Below, piece after piece: positions 33,119 to 40,405 of a stretch of DNA of 64,000 nucleotides. The notes under the pieces were generated by a model. It made no database searches, was not told the DNA's origin, and saw only the letters and a program-made list of their open reading frames with translations. The stretch spans positions 3,732,501 through 3,796,500 of the forward strand of contig OX638356.1 of the NCBI GenBank assembly GCA_951813395.1. Direction: 5' to 3'. Made by a program: the position numbers and the translations under genes. Numbering within the stretch: position 1 is the first letter of the stretch; each line of letters begins with the position of its first letter. This DNA is from Longimicrobiales bacterium. Lineage in GTDB: Bacteria; Gemmatimonadota; Gemmatimonadetes; Longimicrobiales; Gaopeijiaceae.

Positions 33119-33523
33119 CTATCGCGCCGCGTAGATTCCCACCTTGAGGGGCGGGTCGACCCACCAGTGGAAATGGAAGCGGTTCTCGCCCTCCACGACC
33201 ACCGCCTCACGCCGCTCCCGCGTCTTGGGCCAGTCGTCGCGCCCGTTGTGGACGACCAGGACCTGCCCCGGTTCCAGCCTCGCGACCCACTGCCCGAGCG
33301 CGCGCTCCAGGCTGCGCAAAAGGTCCCTTTCCGCGTGCCGCTGCACTTCGGCGTCGGCGTCCGCTCCGATTTCGCCCGTCTCCAGCACCTCGTAGCGGGC
33401 ATCGAAATCGGCAGCGGGGATCGAAAGGACACGGTCGCGCATGAAGCCGATCTCGTTGATCGCCGTCGGATTGAAGTTCGTCTCGACGCTGTGGTATGCG
33501 TTGCCGTATCTCCGCAGAATCAT
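33119..33523 (-). CDS. Hypothetical protein (134 aa) coupled to a DEAD-box helicase
   Basis: No family recognised. The protein begins MILRRYGNAYHSVETNFNPTAINEIGF, continues with a charged helix (EVQRHAERDLLRSLERALGQW) and ends with short strands VLVVHNGRDDWPKTRERREAVVVEG and FHFHWWVDPPLKVG. It is soluble and has no cysteines. The ATG at 33523 overlaps the helicase stop as ATGA, so it is translated from the same message. The regular composition and coupling support a real gene. A role in RNA metabolism would be guilt by association only. Confidence 0.75.
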   Translation of the reverse strand: MILRRYGNAYHSVETNFNPTAINEIGFMRDRVLSIPAADFDARYEVLETGEIGADADAEVQRHAERDLLRSLERALGQWVARLEPGQVLVVHNGRDDWPKTRERREAVVVEGENRFHFHWWVDPPLKVGIYAAR

Positions 33524-34869
33524 TGCTTTCGTCCCGGTGTGTCATGGCTCAGGAGCGCGGCCAGTTCGTCGGGATCGAGACGCTTGCCCGCCTGGCTGCC
33601 CATGCCGCGCCCCGAGCGCGTGCGCTTGCGCGCGGGTTCCCGCCGCGCCATTGCAGCCCCGCCGGCAAAGTCGAAATCGGGGTGGTGCACCTTGTCGAGC
33701 CTGCGTTCCAACTGGTGTTCCAGCGTACGGAAGGCCCCGAGGTCCGCCGCCGTGACGAACGTGACGGCCTCGCCGGTCGCGCCCGCCCTGCCCGTGCGGC
33801 CGGTGCGGTGCACGTAGTCGCCGGGGTCCCGGGGAACGTCGTAGTTCACCACGTGTGAGATCCCCTCGATATCGAGTCCGCGCTGCGCGATATCGGTCGC
33901 GACCAGCACCCTGACCTCGCCCGCGGTGAAACGGTCGATCGCACGGGTGCGATGGCGCATGTGCCGGTCCGAATGGATCACGTCGGAAGAGATGCGGGCA
34001 CCGTCCAGCCGCGACTTGAGGGTGTCGGCGCCGATCTTGGTCCGGGTGAAGACGAGCACCTGGTCCCAGCCCGGCTGACCGAGCAGATGAATCAGCAGGT
34101 CCGGCTTCCTGTCGGGGCGAACCGAGTACGCGATCTCGGAAATGCCCTGGGCCAGCGTGCCCGAAGGGGTCACCTCGACCCAGGCGGGATCCCTGGTCAT
34201 GCGCAGCGCCAGATCGTGGACCGCGTTGGGCATCGTGGCCGAGAAAAGAAGGGTCTGCGGCCGCTTGCCCAGACCGCGCACCACGTCTTCGATCTGGGGG
34301 CGGAATCCCATGTCGAGCATCCGGTCGGCCTCGTCCAGAATCAGGAATCGCACGCCCTTCAGGTTCGCCGTTCCGCGCTTCTGCAGGTCGATCAGCCGGC
34401 CGGGCGTGGCGACGATGACTTCATCTCCGCGCTTGAAGGCCTTGACCTGGGGCTCGTAGGAAACGCCTCCGCATACCACGGTCCCACGAATGCCCGTGCC
34501 CAGCGACAGCGCCTCGGTGTCTTCACAGACCTGGTGCGCCAGCTCGCGGGTGGGGCACAGGACCAGCACCTGAAGTCCCTCACCCTCGGTCAGTCTCTCC
34601 AACGCGGGCAGCATGAACGCACCGGTCTTGCCTGTGCCGGTGCGCGCGATGCCGACGACGTCTCTTCCGCCCATGACCAGGGGGATTGCCTGCCGCTGAA
34701 TGGACGTCGGCTGCGTCCAGCCCTGGGCTTCCACCGCGGCCATGCGCGTTTCCGAAAGGCCGAAGCCCGAGAATCCTGTTGATTCGGTCAAATGCTGTTT
34801 CTTGATGGCCCGCGCGTCCTGTTGCCGCCGGTTGCCGTCCGGTTGGAGGATCCGCGCCAGGCGCTTCAT
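33520..34869 (-). CDS. DEAD-box RNA helicase (RhlE-like), catalytically complete
   Basis: A 449-residue ATP-dependent RNA helicase. The motifs are the Q motif (GWTQPTSIQRQAIP), motif I ARTGTGKT (Lys81), Ia PTRELA, II LDEAD, III SAT, IV VLVFTRT, V ATDIAQRGLDI and VI HRTGRTGR. The C-terminus is basic (RREPARKRTRSGRG), as in RhlE-type proteins. The ATG at 34869 is the best available start but lacks a clear ribosome site; a TTG 26 codons in is possible. Only 27 bases separate it from the divergent phosphatase. It serves as an internal control for the degenerate relative at 38587. Confidence 0.94.
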   Translation of the reverse strand: MKRLARILQPDGNRRQQDARAIKKQHLTESTGFSGFGLSETRMAAVEAQGWTQPTSIQRQAIPLVMGGRDVVGIARTGTGKTGAFMLPALERLTEGEGLQVLVLCPTRELAHQVCEDTEALSLGTGIRGTVVCGGVSYEPQVKAFKRGDEVIVATPGRLIDLQKRGTANLKGVRFLILDEADRMLDMGFRPQIEDVVRGLGKRPQTLLFSATMPNAVHDLALRMTRDPAWVEVTPSGTLAQGISEIAYSVRPDRKPDLLIHLLGQPGWDQVLVFTRTKIGADTLKSRLDGARISSDVIHSDRHMRHRTRAIDRFTAGEVRVLVATDIAQRGLDIEGISHVVNYDVPRDPGDYVHRTGRTGRAGATGEAVTFVTAADLGAFRTLEHQLERRLDKVHHPDFDFAGGAAMARREPARKRTRSGRGMGSQAGKRLDPDELAALLSHDTPGRKQ

Positions 34870-35602: not shown

Positions 35603-36304
35603 CTACCGACGCACCGCGAGCAACAGGCCGTCGCCGACGGGCAGGATCGTGGCGTCGAACCGGGCGTCGGCCGAGACGACGCGGTTGAAGCGGTGGAGCT
35701 GCGCCGCCAGTTCGTCGGAATCGGGTTGCAGCACCCTGCCCGCCCAGAATGCGTTGTCGGCCAGGAGCAGCCCTCCCGGCCTGAGAAGGGTCGCCGCCAC
35801 TTCGAGGTACGTGGTGTAGCGCTCCTTGTCAGCGTCCAGGAAGACCACATCGAACGACCCGTCGGGCTCCAGCTCGGACATCACCGCCACCGCGTCTCCG
35901 ACGCGTATGTCGACCCGGTCGCTCACGCCCGCCGCCGCGACCGACCTGCGCGCGACCGCCGCATGGTCCGCGTTGATCTCGATCGTGGTCAGTCGGCCAT
36001 GCGGAGGGAGCGCCCGCGCGATCCAGACGGCCGAGTACCCTGCCAGGGTGCCCACCTCCAGGACGCGACGCGCGCCCGCCGCCCGGACCAGCACCTGAAC
36101 CGCGCGCGCGGTGGCGGGCGGGAGCTGGATCCGGGGCATCCCGGCCTCGTCCGCACGGCGACGTATCTCGCGCAGCACGGCATCTTCGCCCGCAAAGTGG
36201 CGCTGCACGTACAGATCGAGCGCGTCGTGGTCGAGTTCCGAGGGCTCCGGCGCGCCCGAAGGAACGCGTTCGGCCCGCTCGGCGGAATCGTAGCGCCCGC
36301 TCAC
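35603..36304 (-). CDS. SAM-dependent O-methyltransferase (caffeoyl-CoA/catechol OMT-like)
   Basis: A class I methyltransferase of 233 residues. SAM-binding motif I is VLEVGTLAGYSAVWIA, followed by TIEINADHAAVARR and DVVFLDADKERY (metal and catechol site), then GGLLLADNAFWAGRV. These are characteristic of the cation-dependent O-methyltransferase 3 family. The GTG at 36304 overlaps the aminotransferase stop (GTGA), and upstream in-frame residues lack family similarity, so I take this start. The methyl acceptor is unknown. Co-translation with a class I aminotransferase suggests a small-molecule pathway, possibly an aromatic compound. Confidence 0.9.
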   Translation of the reverse strand: MSGRYDSAERAERVPSGAPEPSELDHDALDLYVQRHFAGEDAVLREIRRRADEAGMPRIQLPPATARAVQVLVRAAGARRVLEVGTLAGYSAVWIARALPPHGRLTTIEINADHAAVARRSVAAAGVSDRVDIRVGDAVAVMSELEPDGSFDVVFLDADKERYTTYLEVAATLLRPGGLLLADNAFWAGRVLQPDSDELAAQLHRFNRVVSADARFDATILPVGDGLLLAVRR

Positions 36305-37491
36305 CGCCGGGACAGCACCCGCGCCATGCGCCGCACGCCCTCTTCGATCTCCTCGTCCGAACACGCCGTGCTCATGCGCGCGTATCGCGCGTCACCGAAC
36401 GCCTCGCCCGGCACGATCGCCACGCCCGCCTCCTCCAGGACGCGGGTGCACACATCGCCCGCGCACGTCACCTCGTCGTCGAAGAGGCCGTCCACGCGAA
36501 AGTACAGGTAGAATGCGCCTCCCGGGCGGATATACGCACACCCCGGGAGGAGTTCGTCGAAGAGGCGCGCCACCAGGTCCCGACGGCGACGGAACGCGGC
36601 CACCATGCGGTCCCGGTCGCGCACCCCCTCTTCGCCGCGCGTCAGGCCCTTCAGTGCGGCGATCTGGGAGGGGGTGGCCGCGTTCAGGGACACGTGGCTC
36701 TGCAACGCCGACATCCTGGCGGCCAGCTCGCGCGTCGTGTAGGAGAAGCCGACCCGCCACCCCGTCATGGCAAAGGCCTTCGACATCCCGTTCGTCACGA
36801 CCAGGTCCCCCACGCGATCCGGGTCGAGGTCCAGCGCGCCCGGCGCCTTCCCACCGTCGCCGTAGTGGATCTCCTGGTAGATCTCGTCGGATATCAGGGT
36901 GATGCCACGTCCCCCCGCCCACTCCGCGATCGCGGCCAGTTCGGACTTCGAGTAGACGGCCCCGGTCGGGTTCGAGGGCGACGACAGGATCAGTCCCTTC
37001 GCGTTCGCGGTGGCGGCCGCCTCCAGGTCGTCGGGCGTCAGCAGGAAGTCGCGGCCCTCGCTCCCCATCACGGGCACCGAGTCGGCTCTGGCCAGGGTCA
37101 CCATCTCGGGATAGGACGTCCAGTACGGCGATCCGATGAGCACTTCGTCGCCCGGCCCGAACAGACAGAAACACGCGTTGAACAGAGACTGCTTCGCCCC
37201 CGCCGAGATCACCACGCGCGCGGGATCGGCCGGGTAGTCCGTTCCGGCGGTCATGTATTCGGCCGCGGCGGCGCGCAGCTCCGGGAGACCCGCCGCGGGG
37301 GTGTACCGCGTACGTCCCTGGCGAATGCCATCGATCCCCGCCCCGGCGACCGCCTCGGGGGTGCGGAAGTCGGGCTCCCCCGCGCTCAGGTTGATGATGT
37401 CCCGCCCCTCGGCCGCCAGCTTCTTCGCCAGCGTGCTCACTGCAACGGTGGCAGAGGGCCGCAGCTTCGCGATGTTTTCGGAGTAGGTCAT
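36301..37491 (-). CDS. Class I PLP-dependent aminotransferase (aspartate aminotransferase-like)
   Basis: A 396-residue fold-type I aminotransferase. The PLP lysine is Lys238 in NGMSKAFAMTGWRVG. Asn175 is in SSPSNPTGAV, Asp202 and Tyr205 are in SDEIYQEI, and the substrate-carboxylate Arg is near the C-terminus in ARMSTACS. This motif set matches the 1-alpha/1-gamma aspartate aminotransferase group (AspC/AspB-like). The ATG at 37491 begins with family-typical sequence but has no clear ribosome site. It overlaps the O-methyltransferase gene by four bases. Amino-donor preference is not decided by sequence. Confidence 0.93.
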   Translation of the reverse strand: MTYSENIAKLRPSATVAVSTLAKKLAAEGRDIINLSAGEPDFRTPEAVAGAGIDGIRQGRTRYTPAAGLPELRAAAAEYMTAGTDYPADPARVVISAGAKQSLFNACFCLFGPGDEVLIGSPYWTSYPEMVTLARADSVPVMGSEGRDFLLTPDDLEAAATANAKGLILSSPSNPTGAVYSKSELAAIAEWAGGRGITLISDEIYQEIHYGDGGKAPGALDLDPDRVGDLVVTNGMSKAFAMTGWRVGFSYTTRELAARMSALQSHVSLNAATPSQIAALKGLTRGEEGVRDRDRMVAAFRRRRDLVARLFDELLPGCAYIRPGGAFYLYFRVDGLFDDEVTCAGDVCTRVLEEAGVAIVPGEAFGDARYARMSTACSDEEIEEGVRRMARVLSRR

Positions 37492-37618
37492 GGGTTAGTC
37501 TTATGATCCCCGCTGAGGAAGAATGACGACGAAATGAAGCTCCACCCGCGCACGTCCGACAATCGGCACACCCATGTGCGTTGGCAACCCCGGCCACGCT
37601 GACCGTCGGCCCCGCAAA

Positions 37619-38227
37619 ATGGCCACCCGAACGCGCGTCTTTTTCTTCGACTTCACCGATCCCGGATCGTACCTCGCCAGTCATCTCCTGGACGAGGGAG
37701 GCGTCGCCGGCCGCTGGGAGTGGCGCGGCCTCGAGCTGCGGCCTCCCCCCCGGGCGCTCGTCGATCCGACCGATCCGGACTGGCGGTCCTACCATGCGCT
37801 GATCGCCGACAGCGCGGGCAAGCGGGGCCTCCCGATGAGTACGCCACGGTTCGTTCCCTGGACCCGCAAGGCCCATGAACTCGCCGAGTTCGCCCGCGAG
37901 CAGGATTGTTACCAGGCCGTCAAGCGCACACTGTTCGAAGCCCACTTTGTCGACCGAACGGACATCGGGCGGATAGATTTGCTGGTCGAGATCGCGGGCG
38001 CGGCCGGGCTGGACCGTTCCGGCGCCAGGGCGGCGCTGGACGTCGATCGCCATGCCGCGACCGTGTTGCGGCACAGGGAACTTGCGAAGAAGTGGGACGT
38101 GGAGGAGGTTCCGGCGGTCGTGCACGGAACGCGGCGAATCGAAGGATTGAAGTCGCCCGCGCGGCTGTTGGAGTGGACGCGCCGGGTCGGGATCGAACGG
38201 ATTGCAGAGCAAGAGGAGCGACAGTAG
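37619..38227 (+). CDS. DsbA-like thioredoxin-fold protein without CxxC (HCCA isomerase/GST-kappa-like)
   Basis: A 202-residue thioredoxin-fold protein with an inserted helical domain. Where DsbA has CPxC this protein has FFDFTDPGSYLAS. That resembles the FDFSSPYSYLA loop of 2-hydroxychromene-2-carboxylate isomerase and GST-kappa, in which a Ser/Thr contacts glutathione. The cis-proline loop EEVPAVVHGTRRIEG is present. It is therefore unlikely to be a disulfide oxidoreductase. No signal peptide is seen, so it is cytoplasmic. The ATG at 37619 is favoured over an upstream in-frame start by family alignment. It lies four bases ahead of the next small gene. Confidence 0.87.
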   Translation: MATRTRVFFFDFTDPGSYLASHLLDEGGVAGRWEWRGLELRPPPRALVDPTDPDWRSYHALIADSAGKRGLPMSTPRFVPWTRKAHELAEFAREQDCYQAVKRTLFEAHFVDRTDIGRIDLLVEIAGAAGLDRSGARAALDVDRHAATVLRHRELAKKWDVEEVPAVVHGTRRIEGLKSPARLLEWTRRVGIERIAEQEERQ

Positions 38228-38231
38228 AGCA

Positions 38232-38543
38232 ATGGCGGGATACGAGCGCAAAACGGCACTGGCACCGGCGGAAGTGCTGCAAAAGGCCGAGGAGTGGCTG
38301 CCGGACTACATCGGTCTGAAGCGGTCGAAGCACACGTCCCACGGGGCCACCTACACGGGCGAAGAGGGGACGGTCGTCCTGAGAGCCCACCGGCACGGCC
38401 CGTTTACCGACGTCACCGCTCGCACCGACCGGCTCCGGACCTCGCGCATGGACTACGAGGTCCAGCGCTTCCTGAACTGTCTGCCGTATGAATACGGCGA
38501 CGCGGGGGGCCCTGGCTCCGGCGATCCGGGCAGGCCGGAGTGA
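38232..38543 (+). CDS. Hypothetical protein (103 aa)
   Basis: An unrecognised soluble protein. It begins MAGYERKTALAPAEVLQKAEEWLPDYIGL (helical) and continues with short beta strands TYTGEEGTVVLRAHRHG and FTDVTARTDRLR. It has a single cysteine in RFLNCLPYEYG and a Gly/Pro tail. It could be a small START-like or dodecin-size domain, but I see no diagnostic motif. It starts four bases after the stop of the thioredoxin-fold gene, so it is co-transcribed. It precedes the degenerate helicase by 43 bases. Confidence 0.72.
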   Translation: MAGYERKTALAPAEVLQKAEEWLPDYIGLKRSKHTSHGATYTGEEGTVVLRAHRHGPFTDVTARTDRLRTSRMDYEVQRFLNCLPYEYGDAGGPGSGDPGRPE

Positions 38544-38586: not shown

Positions 38587-40278
38587 ATGGCGAGCCCCGT
38601 CTCCTTCGACGAATTGCCGCTCGGTCCCGAGACCGTGGCCGCGCTCGCGGCCGAGGGGATCGAGACGCCTACGCCCTTTCAGGCCGCAGCCATCCCCGTC
38701 ATTGCGCGCGGCAACGATCTGCTCGGCCGGGCGGGTCCCGGCAGCGGCACGATGGTGGCCTACGCCGCCCCCCTGATCGAGCGTCTCGAAGGGGGCGCGG
38801 GCTCCCCCGTCTGCCTCGTCCTGTGCACGGGCCGGCGCCAGGCCACCGAACTAGCGCGTTCGCTCGCACGCCTGTGCGAAGTGGCCGGCATCCGTGTCGC
38901 CGCCCTGACCGACCGGTGGAACCTTCCCGAACGGGCAGACATCCTGGTGCTGCCCGCCGACCGCTTCCGAGCCGCGTACGACGGGACCATCGCACCGCAG
39001 CGCCTCAAGGCGGTTGTCTTCCACGACGGCGACGGGGTCGTCGCCAGTGTCGCCGCGGACCAACTGGAAGCCTTTCTCGGAAGCTTGCCCGGCGACTGCC
39101 AGCGCATAGTGTGCGGCTTGCCGTTCGGACCCGCGCTGCACTCGCTCGCAAAGCGGTTTGCGCGGCGCGCGGTCAGCGTCCCGCCACGTCCACGGCCCGG
39201 CACCCGGGCCGACCGCCCCCCGGCCGGCCCGAAGCGGGAACGCCACGCAGCCGCCAGCGACCAAATCCGCTCCCTGCAGGTGGTGGTGACCGCCGACAAC
39301 CGCGCCGAAGCCGTGCTCGACCAGGCCGCCGAGCTGCTTCAGGGCCCGGTGCGTCACGTGCTGGTGTACACGGCTTCGGCCGATCAGGCGGCCGACCTGG
39401 GCGACTTCCTCGCAACACACGGCTACCTGCCCGGACCACCGGGCGACGAGTCCGTGCCGGTGTGGGTCTCGCCCGGCGAGGACGCGGCCGCGAGGGAAGC
39501 CCTGGATGCCGCAACCGATCCCGCCGCCGTCGCAACGCTGTCGGCGTCGGTGCCCCCCGGAGCCGAAATCGCCGCGATTCGTCACGGGGCCGGCGGTCCA
39601 GCCCGCGTGCTGTCGGAGATTCGCGAGCTCGCGCACCTGAAGGACGTGGCCGCAGAAGCGGGCCTTGCCCTGAAACGGTTGCGGCCGGAGCGCCCACCAC
39701 GCGTCTCGACGGCGCTGGACAAGTTGGGCGACGACCTTCACGAAGCGGCGCGGGCCGCGGAGATTGCGCCGTACTACCTGCTCGTCGAGTCGCTTCTGGA
39801 CCGCTTTTCGGCGGCCGAGGTTGCCGCGGCAGCTCTTTTATTGCTCGACCGCAAGACGTCGAAGAAGGACACGTCCGCCGTGGGGGCCGGCAGTGGCGCG
39901 GCCCCGGAGAGCTGGGTCAGGCTGTTCGTGTCGGCGGGGCAGCGGGACGAGGTCGGGCCGCGCGAGTTGCTCGGAGCACTCACCAATCAGTCCGGCGTAC
40001 CGGGCAACCGGGTCGGCAGAATCGACGTGCGCGAAAGCCATTCCCTGATCGAGGTGCGCAAGGGAGACGCGAAAGCGGTGATCTCGGCGCTGAACGGCAC
40101 CACGCTGGGCGGACGCAGCCTGCGCGTCGACTACGACCGCGCGAAGGACAGACGGCCTGCCGGCGGAGGCCGCCCGCCCCAGGGGAATCGGCGCCCGGTC
40201 AGGCCGCCATTTCGTCCCGGCGGCGGCGGAACATCCGGTAAAGGAAGTAGCCGGCCGCGACGAACAGACCGATCTTGA
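38587..40278 (+). CDS. Degenerate DEAD-box protein with intact DbpA-type RNA-binding domain
   Basis: A 563-residue DEAD-box descendant. The Q motif region is kept (ETPTPFQAAAIPVI). Motif I is changed from AxTGxGKT to AGPGSGTM (residues 49-56; the ATP-binding Lys is now Thr55). Motif II, DEAD, is replaced by FHDGDG (about 145-150). No SAT, and no HRxGRxGR motif VI, are visible. Residues 441-520 are a well-preserved DbpA C-terminal RNA-binding fold (VRLFVSAGQRDEVGPRELLG, GNRVGRIDVRESHSLIEV, LNGTTLGGRSLRVDYDRA), followed by a basic RGG-like tail. It probably binds structured or ribosomal RNA without unwinding it. Its 3' end overlaps the gene at 40199 by 80 bases. Confidence 0.85.
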   Translation: MASPVSFDELPLGPETVAALAAEGIETPTPFQAAAIPVIARGNDLLGRAGPGSGTMVAYAAPLIERLEGGAGSPVCLVLCTGRRQATELARSLARLCEVAGIRVAALTDRWNLPERADILVLPADRFRAAYDGTIAPQRLKAVVFHDGDGVVASVAADQLEAFLGSLPGDCQRIVCGLPFGPALHSLAKRFARRAVSVPPRPRPGTRADRPPAGPKRERHAAASDQIRSLQVVVTADNRAEAVLDQAAELLQGPVRHVLVYTASADQAADLGDFLATHGYLPGPPGDESVPVWVSPGEDAAAREALDAATDPAAVATLSASVPPGAEIAAIRHGAGGPARVLSEIRELAHLKDVAAEAGLALKRLRPERPPRVSTALDKLGDDLHEAARAAEIAPYYLLVESLLDRFSAAEVAAAALLLLDRKTSKKDTSAVGAGSGAAPESWVRLFVSAGQRDEVGPRELLGALTNQSGVPGNRVGRIDVRESHSLIEVRKGDAKAVISALNGTTLGGRSLRVDYDRAKDRRPAGGGRPPQGNRRPVRPPFRPGGGGTSGKGSSRPRRTDRS

Positions 40279-40405
40279 AGGCCATGGCCATGAAGCCGAA
40301 CAACATCCCGAGCAGGGGAATCGCGGCCGCCATGAGCAGCTTCAACAACACCACGCTCACGGCCCCCGTGACCGCGACTGCGCCCAAAGTCCTCACCATC
40401 TGCAT
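40199..40405 (-). CDS. Small two-helix membrane protein (68 aa)
   Basis: A short integral membrane protein with two hydrophobic segments, AVAVTGAVSVVLLKLLMAAA and GMLFGFMAMAFKIGLFVAAG, and a positively charged tail YRMFRRRRDEMAA. Upstream of the ATG at 40405 lie AGAGGAG and a closer AGGAA, so translation is plausible. It overlaps the 3' end of the degenerate helicase gene tail-to-tail by 80 bases. Antisense high-GC frames often look open, but the strong membrane pattern and ribosome site favour a real gene. Confidence 0.68.
   Translation of the reverse strand: MQMVRTLGAVAVTGAVSVVLLKLLMAAAIPLLGMLFGFMAMAFKIGLFVAAGYFLYRMFRRRRDEMAA

Follow-up and report, generated by a model that had tools for sequence, protein, structure and literature searches.

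A DEAD-box pseudohelicase lineage with a conserved DbpA-type RNA-binding domain in Gemmatimonadota

The window analyzed here, a stretch of 64,000 nucleotides from a Longimicrobiales bacterium (GCA_951813395.1, contig OX638356.1, positions 3,732,501 to 3,796,500), contains a gene whose product has the fold of a DEAD-box helicase without its catalytic residues. With the helicase fold kept, the catalytic residues lost and the gene under selection across its clade, this protein is a pseudohelicase. Sequence comparison places it in a selected pseudohelicase lineage that appears class-wide in Gemmatimonadota, and the protein is probably a functional dead helicase that binds RNA and not the product of a decaying gene. 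With moderate confidence, we favor the view that it is an ATPase-dead DEAD-box protein, an ancient DbpA/DeaD paralogue that may serve as an ATP-independent factor for RNA, perhaps 23S rRNA.

The initial annotation had reported an open frame of 563 codons, and this frame is present with an in-frame ATG. Its product consists, in order, of a pseudo-RecA1 domain, a linker, a pseudo-RecA2 domain, a helical domain, a DbpA-type RNA-binding domain (RBD) and a basic tail (Table 1). The same annotation had described a motif I without its Lys and a motif II that has lost DEAD, and AGPGSGTM and FHDGDG are indeed read at these sites. Its further claim that motif VI is absent is correct for the GRxGR arginine finger, which is missing, but the site is not deleted and carries an [R]RH sequence. 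In this protein the position reads IRHGAGGPA, with no HRxGRxGR, and H333 occupies the place of motif VI in 104 of 106 sequences from families f1–f3. The Q motif is present, and its residues F7 and Q32 are near-invariant. We infer from the lost catalytic residues that the protein lacks ATPase activity.

Table 1. Features of the pseudohelicase gene and its neighborhood (positions are those of the window).
Feature	Coordinates	Strand	Evidence or remarks
Pseudohelicase CDS, 563 aa	38587..40278	+	ORF/translation, Pfam, AlphaFold2, orthologues
Pseudo-RecA1, residues 5–200	38599..39186	+	VIA-align, dN/dS 0.18, position counts
Degenerate motif I (Walker A), AGPGSGTM	38731..38754	+	Lys to Thr (T55); P-loop glycines kept
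Degenerate motif II, FHDGDG instead of DEAD	39019..39036	+	HDG fixed in 20/20 genus sequences
Disordered interdomain linker, residues 201–228	39187..39270	+	pLDDT 57–73; dN/dS ~0.98
Pseudo-RecA2, residues 229–367, without motifs V and VI	39271..39687	+	Pfam, AlphaFold2, dN/dS, VIA-align
Three-helix domain, residues 371–431, where Hera/DeaD have their dimerization domain	39697..39879	+	AlphaFold2 helices
DbpA-type RNA-binding domain, residues 443–516	39913..40134	+	PF03880; phmmer to 7bbb, 2g0c/3moj
Guanine-contact motif V476-G477-R478-I479	40012..40023	+	Aligned with Hera V461–V464, YxiN I436–I439
Disordered basic Gly/Pro/Arg tail	40141..40275	+	13 R/K, 2 D/E in 45 residues
Conserved 103-aa protein directly upstream, likely same operon	38232..38543	+	Relatives aligned
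DsbA-like thioredoxin-fold gene, conserved neighbor	37574..38227	+	Pfam, synteny
Probable aminotransferase, conserved neighbor	36301..37491	-	Synteny; named by its sequence alone
Intact RhlE-like DEAD-box helicase, syntenic neighbor and contrast	33520..34869	-	Pfam, NCBIfam, dN/dS 0.126

Profile searches reflect this uneven preservation. The DEAD domain is weak (35.9 bits, residues 29–174) and Helicase_C (PF00271) gives no Pfam match in the pseudohelicase, while PF03880 scores 75.3 bits over residues 445–514 against a cut-off of 25.6, which bears out the earlier description of a preserved C-terminal DbpA RNA-binding fold. The best NCBIfam match is DbpA, with a score (98.6 bits) that lies far below the 524-bit equivalog cut-off. 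The normal DEAD-box gene noted about 4 kb away is the RhlE-like helicase, which lies about 3.7 kb off and scores 162 for DEAD and 103 for Helicase_C. Among the PF00270 matches of the genome, this RhlE-like gene stands far above the others, and the pseudohelicase is the only PF03880 protein in its genome.

The AlphaFold2 model, built from 74 sequences (mean pLDDT 85.8, pTM 0.69), predicts two RecA-like domains, three helices, the RBD and a disordered tail. Both RecA-like domains have pLDDT values mostly above 90 and align with DEAD-box cores at Z 24–28 (VIA-align), and the pseudo-RecA1 domain matches the DEAD-box RecA1 domain of 5gju with Z 28 and 1.9 A over 195 residues. The PDB sequence nearest to pseudo-RecA1 is the RecA1 domain of Hera, and the top Foldseek match of the whole model is E. 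coli DbpA (7pli, E 3.7e-22). Sequence searches with phmmer match the RBD to E. coli DbpA (7bbb) and B. subtilis YxiN (2g0c/3moj). The three-helix domain scores 15.6 bits against PF25399 in this protein and 23.3 in a relative (L263), the cut-off being 23.

Among 196 related genomes searched, 109 of 116 from the bacterium's own family gave a match with E < 1e-30, and orthologues were also present in two further families of the order and, within the class, in family f9. Assembly or frameshift error can be rejected as the source of the altered motifs, since separate MAGs and complete genomes have the same gene. In a wider genome collection, the relatives are labeled almost only Gemmatimonadota, and those named are MAGs from sponge, marine, soda-lake and soil sources, the habitats being judged from isolate names. 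Three MAGs labeled Gammaproteobacteria (L143, L150 and L155) also carry the gene with the Gemmatimonadota gene order; their sequences fall within the Gemmatimonadota family, and the labels look wrong. The gene and any other DbpA-RBD protein went undetected in one genome of the same genus (G010; 2.8 Mb, 96% complete), and the pseudohelicase is therefore not strictly essential. In genome G187, the orthologue (L262:1802-2587) is an open frame of only 262 aa, possibly because of a sequencing frameshift.

Across these species the motif changes are conserved and intact motifs I and II are absent from the family's orthologues, as the initial annotation had anticipated for a gene under selection. In the alignment, none of 84 own-family sequences carries the Walker Lys, and the DEAD Glu is missing from all of the roughly 108 sequences compared. 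The genus sequences (n=20) have T, A or I at the Walker Lys position and HDG at motif II in every case, and the other 64 own-family sequences have T, A, L, V or I for the Lys and mostly VVDGA or VVDQA for DEAD. Median pairwise dN/dS (NG86) among 16 genus orthologues is 0.18 for RecA1, 0.23 for RecA2, 0.22 for the helical domain and 0.15 for the RBD; the linker serves as a near-neutral internal control, and the intact rhlE nearby gives the value listed in Table 1. Although dS is near 1 for many of these genus pairs, close relatives with dS of 0.47–0.48 over the gene (L112–L114) give the same picture, with dN/dS of about 0.17. The loss of key catalytic motifs is what a decaying pseudogene, still open by chance, would display, but the chance that this gene is one is close to nil: the folded domains are constrained against a linker near 1, the gene is retained throughout most of the family and its gene order is conserved. 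Constraint and breadth of conservation thus refute decay, and the absence of pseudogene-like erosion agrees with the earlier prediction. That prediction had also called the protein neofunctionalized; selection is borne out, but an old paralogue that underwent sub-functionalization accounts for the findings just as well.

Within the class, 177 of 198 genomes encode PF03880 proteins; none was seen in five f11 genomes, from the other class of the phylum that was sampled. Those fetched are of two types, one intact (AATGTGKT, LDEADEML, HRIGRxGR) and one degenerate, and both are found together in some genomes of f1, f3 and f7. Among the 59 positive f1 genomes, 9 carry a second copy, which reads as intact in eight cases and is a fragment in one; most own-family genomes, including that of the window, have the degenerate copy only. 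A profile of the degenerate core also matches degenerate proteins of f4, f6, f7 and f10, whose core is more eroded, in some cases with the Q motif and P-loop lost entirely, and these members still keep an RBD motif resembling PGDLVGAITGExxxxxxQIGRID. In a tree rooted with RhlE, a branch with an SH-aLRT of 100 sets the 37 degenerate rows apart; the long branches call for caution, and composition is skewed in some rows. The degenerate proteins are thus placed in one clade, separate from the intact DeaD/DbpA-type paralogue. The long-branched, skewed rows would also be expected if an active paralogue had degenerated several times independently and the products had been joined artificially in the tree. 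We regard this as very improbable, given that the own family groups with f2 and f3 with support and in line with taxonomy, that genomes of f1, f3 and f7 contain an active copy beside a degenerate one, with the two types in different clades, and that upstream neighbors are common to f1–f3.

The order in which the motifs were lost can be read from the outer families. A GxGKT sequence is kept in 12 of the 20 f2/f3 sequences with a residue at this position and in most f9 members. These Lys-bearing members typically have VVDGAS in place of DEAD, and motif II therefore appears to have been lost before motif I. A degenerate f4 protein (L251:764-2563, minus strand) has the letters DEAD and no Walker lysine, so the order was not one and the same everywhere. 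The glycines G52 and G54 of the P-loop are, like F7 and Q32, near-invariant through f1, f2, f3 and f9, even where Lys, Glu and motif VI are lost. Together with the Walker Lys of f3 and most f9 members, this would suit a residual switch in which an adenine nucleotide binds the Q motif and the P-loop glycines and, unhydrolyzed, toggles the binding of RNA or of a partner. Such a switch seems improbable to us, as the Q motif has also been lost in f4, f6 and f7, and the invariant residues may be structural.

The RBD provides the main indication of function. Structural work on related domains has shown that guanine is read through V461-G462-V464 in Hera and I436-G437-I439 in YxiN (PMC3695512), and V476, G477 and I479 of the pseudohelicase align with these residues. 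Among 109 sequences from f1–f3 and f9, G477 is invariant and residue 478 is always R or K; in the intact paralogues this position is A, S, G, T or E, and once K. The conserved RBD and its guanine-contact residues suggest that the pseudohelicase binds RNA. Target specificity is not transferable from the known proteins, because the specificity lysine K427 of YxiN aligns with N467 and because Hera does not read the hairpin-92 loop (PMC3695512). In E. coli, the RRM of DbpA binds hairpin 92 of 23S rRNA and thereby recruits DbpA (PMC7973409). As the RBD is DbpA-like, 23S rRNA would be the leading candidate target, with the chances standing about even, and by analogy an action on 23S rRNA, as initially proposed, is plausible. 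A dominant-negative mutant of E. coli DbpA is described as blocking 50S assembly (Sharpe Elles 2009, cited in PMC7973409), which implies weaker binding, a different site or another mode of release for the pseudohelicase.

The gene neighborhood offers a second view of function. Throughout the family, the gene order is rhlE(-), a phosphatase-like gene(+), in some cases a methyltransferase gene(-), the aminotransferase(-), the DsbA-like gene(+), the 103-aa ORF(+) and the pseudohelicase(+). The 103-aa ORF, often together with the DsbA-like gene, is still present upstream in many loci of f2 and f3, sometimes farther off; in others no neighbor was recognized. The 103-aa protein is 61–91% identical to the window copy in 49 aligned relatives, and its gene is usually separated from the pseudohelicase by no more than 30 nt, with several overlapping. 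This spacing suggests co-translation, and the two genes likely form one operon. Profile and PDB searches returned no known family and no PDB match for the 103-aa protein; its predicted small alpha/beta fold gives weak, mixed Foldseek matches (best 2zfd_B, E 7e-4) and has a weak KA1-like similarity.

These neighbors are relevant to a further alternative, in which the ATPase-dead RNA binder has a non-ribosomal target, either as a regulator of mRNA or sRNA or as a degradosome-type scaffold with RhlE and the 103-aa protein. The rhlE synteny in the family and the tight operon would fit such a role, as would Hera, which has a related RBD, recognizes GGGPyr sequences and is believed not to be specific to the ribosome (PMC3695512). 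We consider this a serious though less probable alternative: RBDs of the pseudo-lineage score best against DbpA (NCBIfam), and the synteny may only mirror slow change in gene order, and none is seen in outer-family loci, whose flanks are shorter.

For the favored ATP-independent RNA factor, we envisage a lineage that would have split from DbpA/DeaD-type helicases and lost first the DEAD glutamate and later the Walker lysine. Its RecA-like domains would stay folded under purifying selection and act as a scaffold with no ATPase or unwinding cycle, while the RBD and basic tail would bind RNA. The likeliest ligand would be a single-stranded segment or a loop with G in it, of which the hairpin-92 region of 23S rRNA is an example. 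Working without ATP hydrolysis, the protein could assist 50S assembly as a chaperone or placeholder, or could sit on RNA as a platform for partners, among which the 103-aa operon protein or RhlE are perhaps candidates. Against this favored role, the neighboring genes are not ribosome-assembly genes, and a dead DbpA occupying the same site would have to leave it by another route. A broader proposal, which we consider unlikely, is that most of Gemmatimonadetes uses an ATP-hydrolysis-free, DbpA-derived factor for ribosome assembly or general RNA functions, possibly still gated by adenine nucleotides through the Q motif, and that several lineages discarded the active paralogue.

To our knowledge, few pseudohelicases have been documented, and our literature search, partial in its coverage, found none among bacterial DEAD-box proteins. 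E. coli DbpA and B. subtilis YxiN share the RecA1-RecA2-RBD order and the V/I-G-x-I guanine contact with the pseudohelicase, which differs in lacking the Walker Lys, DEAD and motif VI and in adding the helical domain and basic tail. Thermus Hera likewise has a helical domain between RecA2 and the RBD, and the position of its K463 is Arg or Lys in the pseudohelicase lineage; Hera differs in being an active ATPase and helicase, and the match to PF25399, the dimerization domain, is below cut-off in the pseudohelicase and just above it in relative L263. Yeast Utp25, a ribosome-assembly factor, is a conserved and functional protein with a DEAD-box-like fold that has also lost its motifs, but it is eukaryotic, has no DbpA RBD and belongs to the small-subunit processome, and the dispensability of its motifs was proven by mutation (PMC9539457). 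PriA of Deinococcus offers a bacterial case in which helicase motifs were lost throughout a lineage while the protein still binds nucleic acid, although that of D. radiodurans is a DNA replication-restart protein of an unrelated subfamily whose loss of ATPase activity was measured (PMC4504706). The lineage described here combines a stepwise loss, of DEAD, then the Walker Lys and then, in some families, most RecA1 motifs, with a constant RBD. Such a lineage makes it possible to ask which tasks a DEAD-box scaffold performs when it does not use ATP, and whether the motor is required at all for a DbpA-like role in 50S assembly.

A 68-aa ORF with a hydrophobic stretch runs on the opposite strand (40199-40405, minus strand) and covers the final 80 nt of the pseudohelicase gene; the tail that it covers is conserved in some members of the genus.
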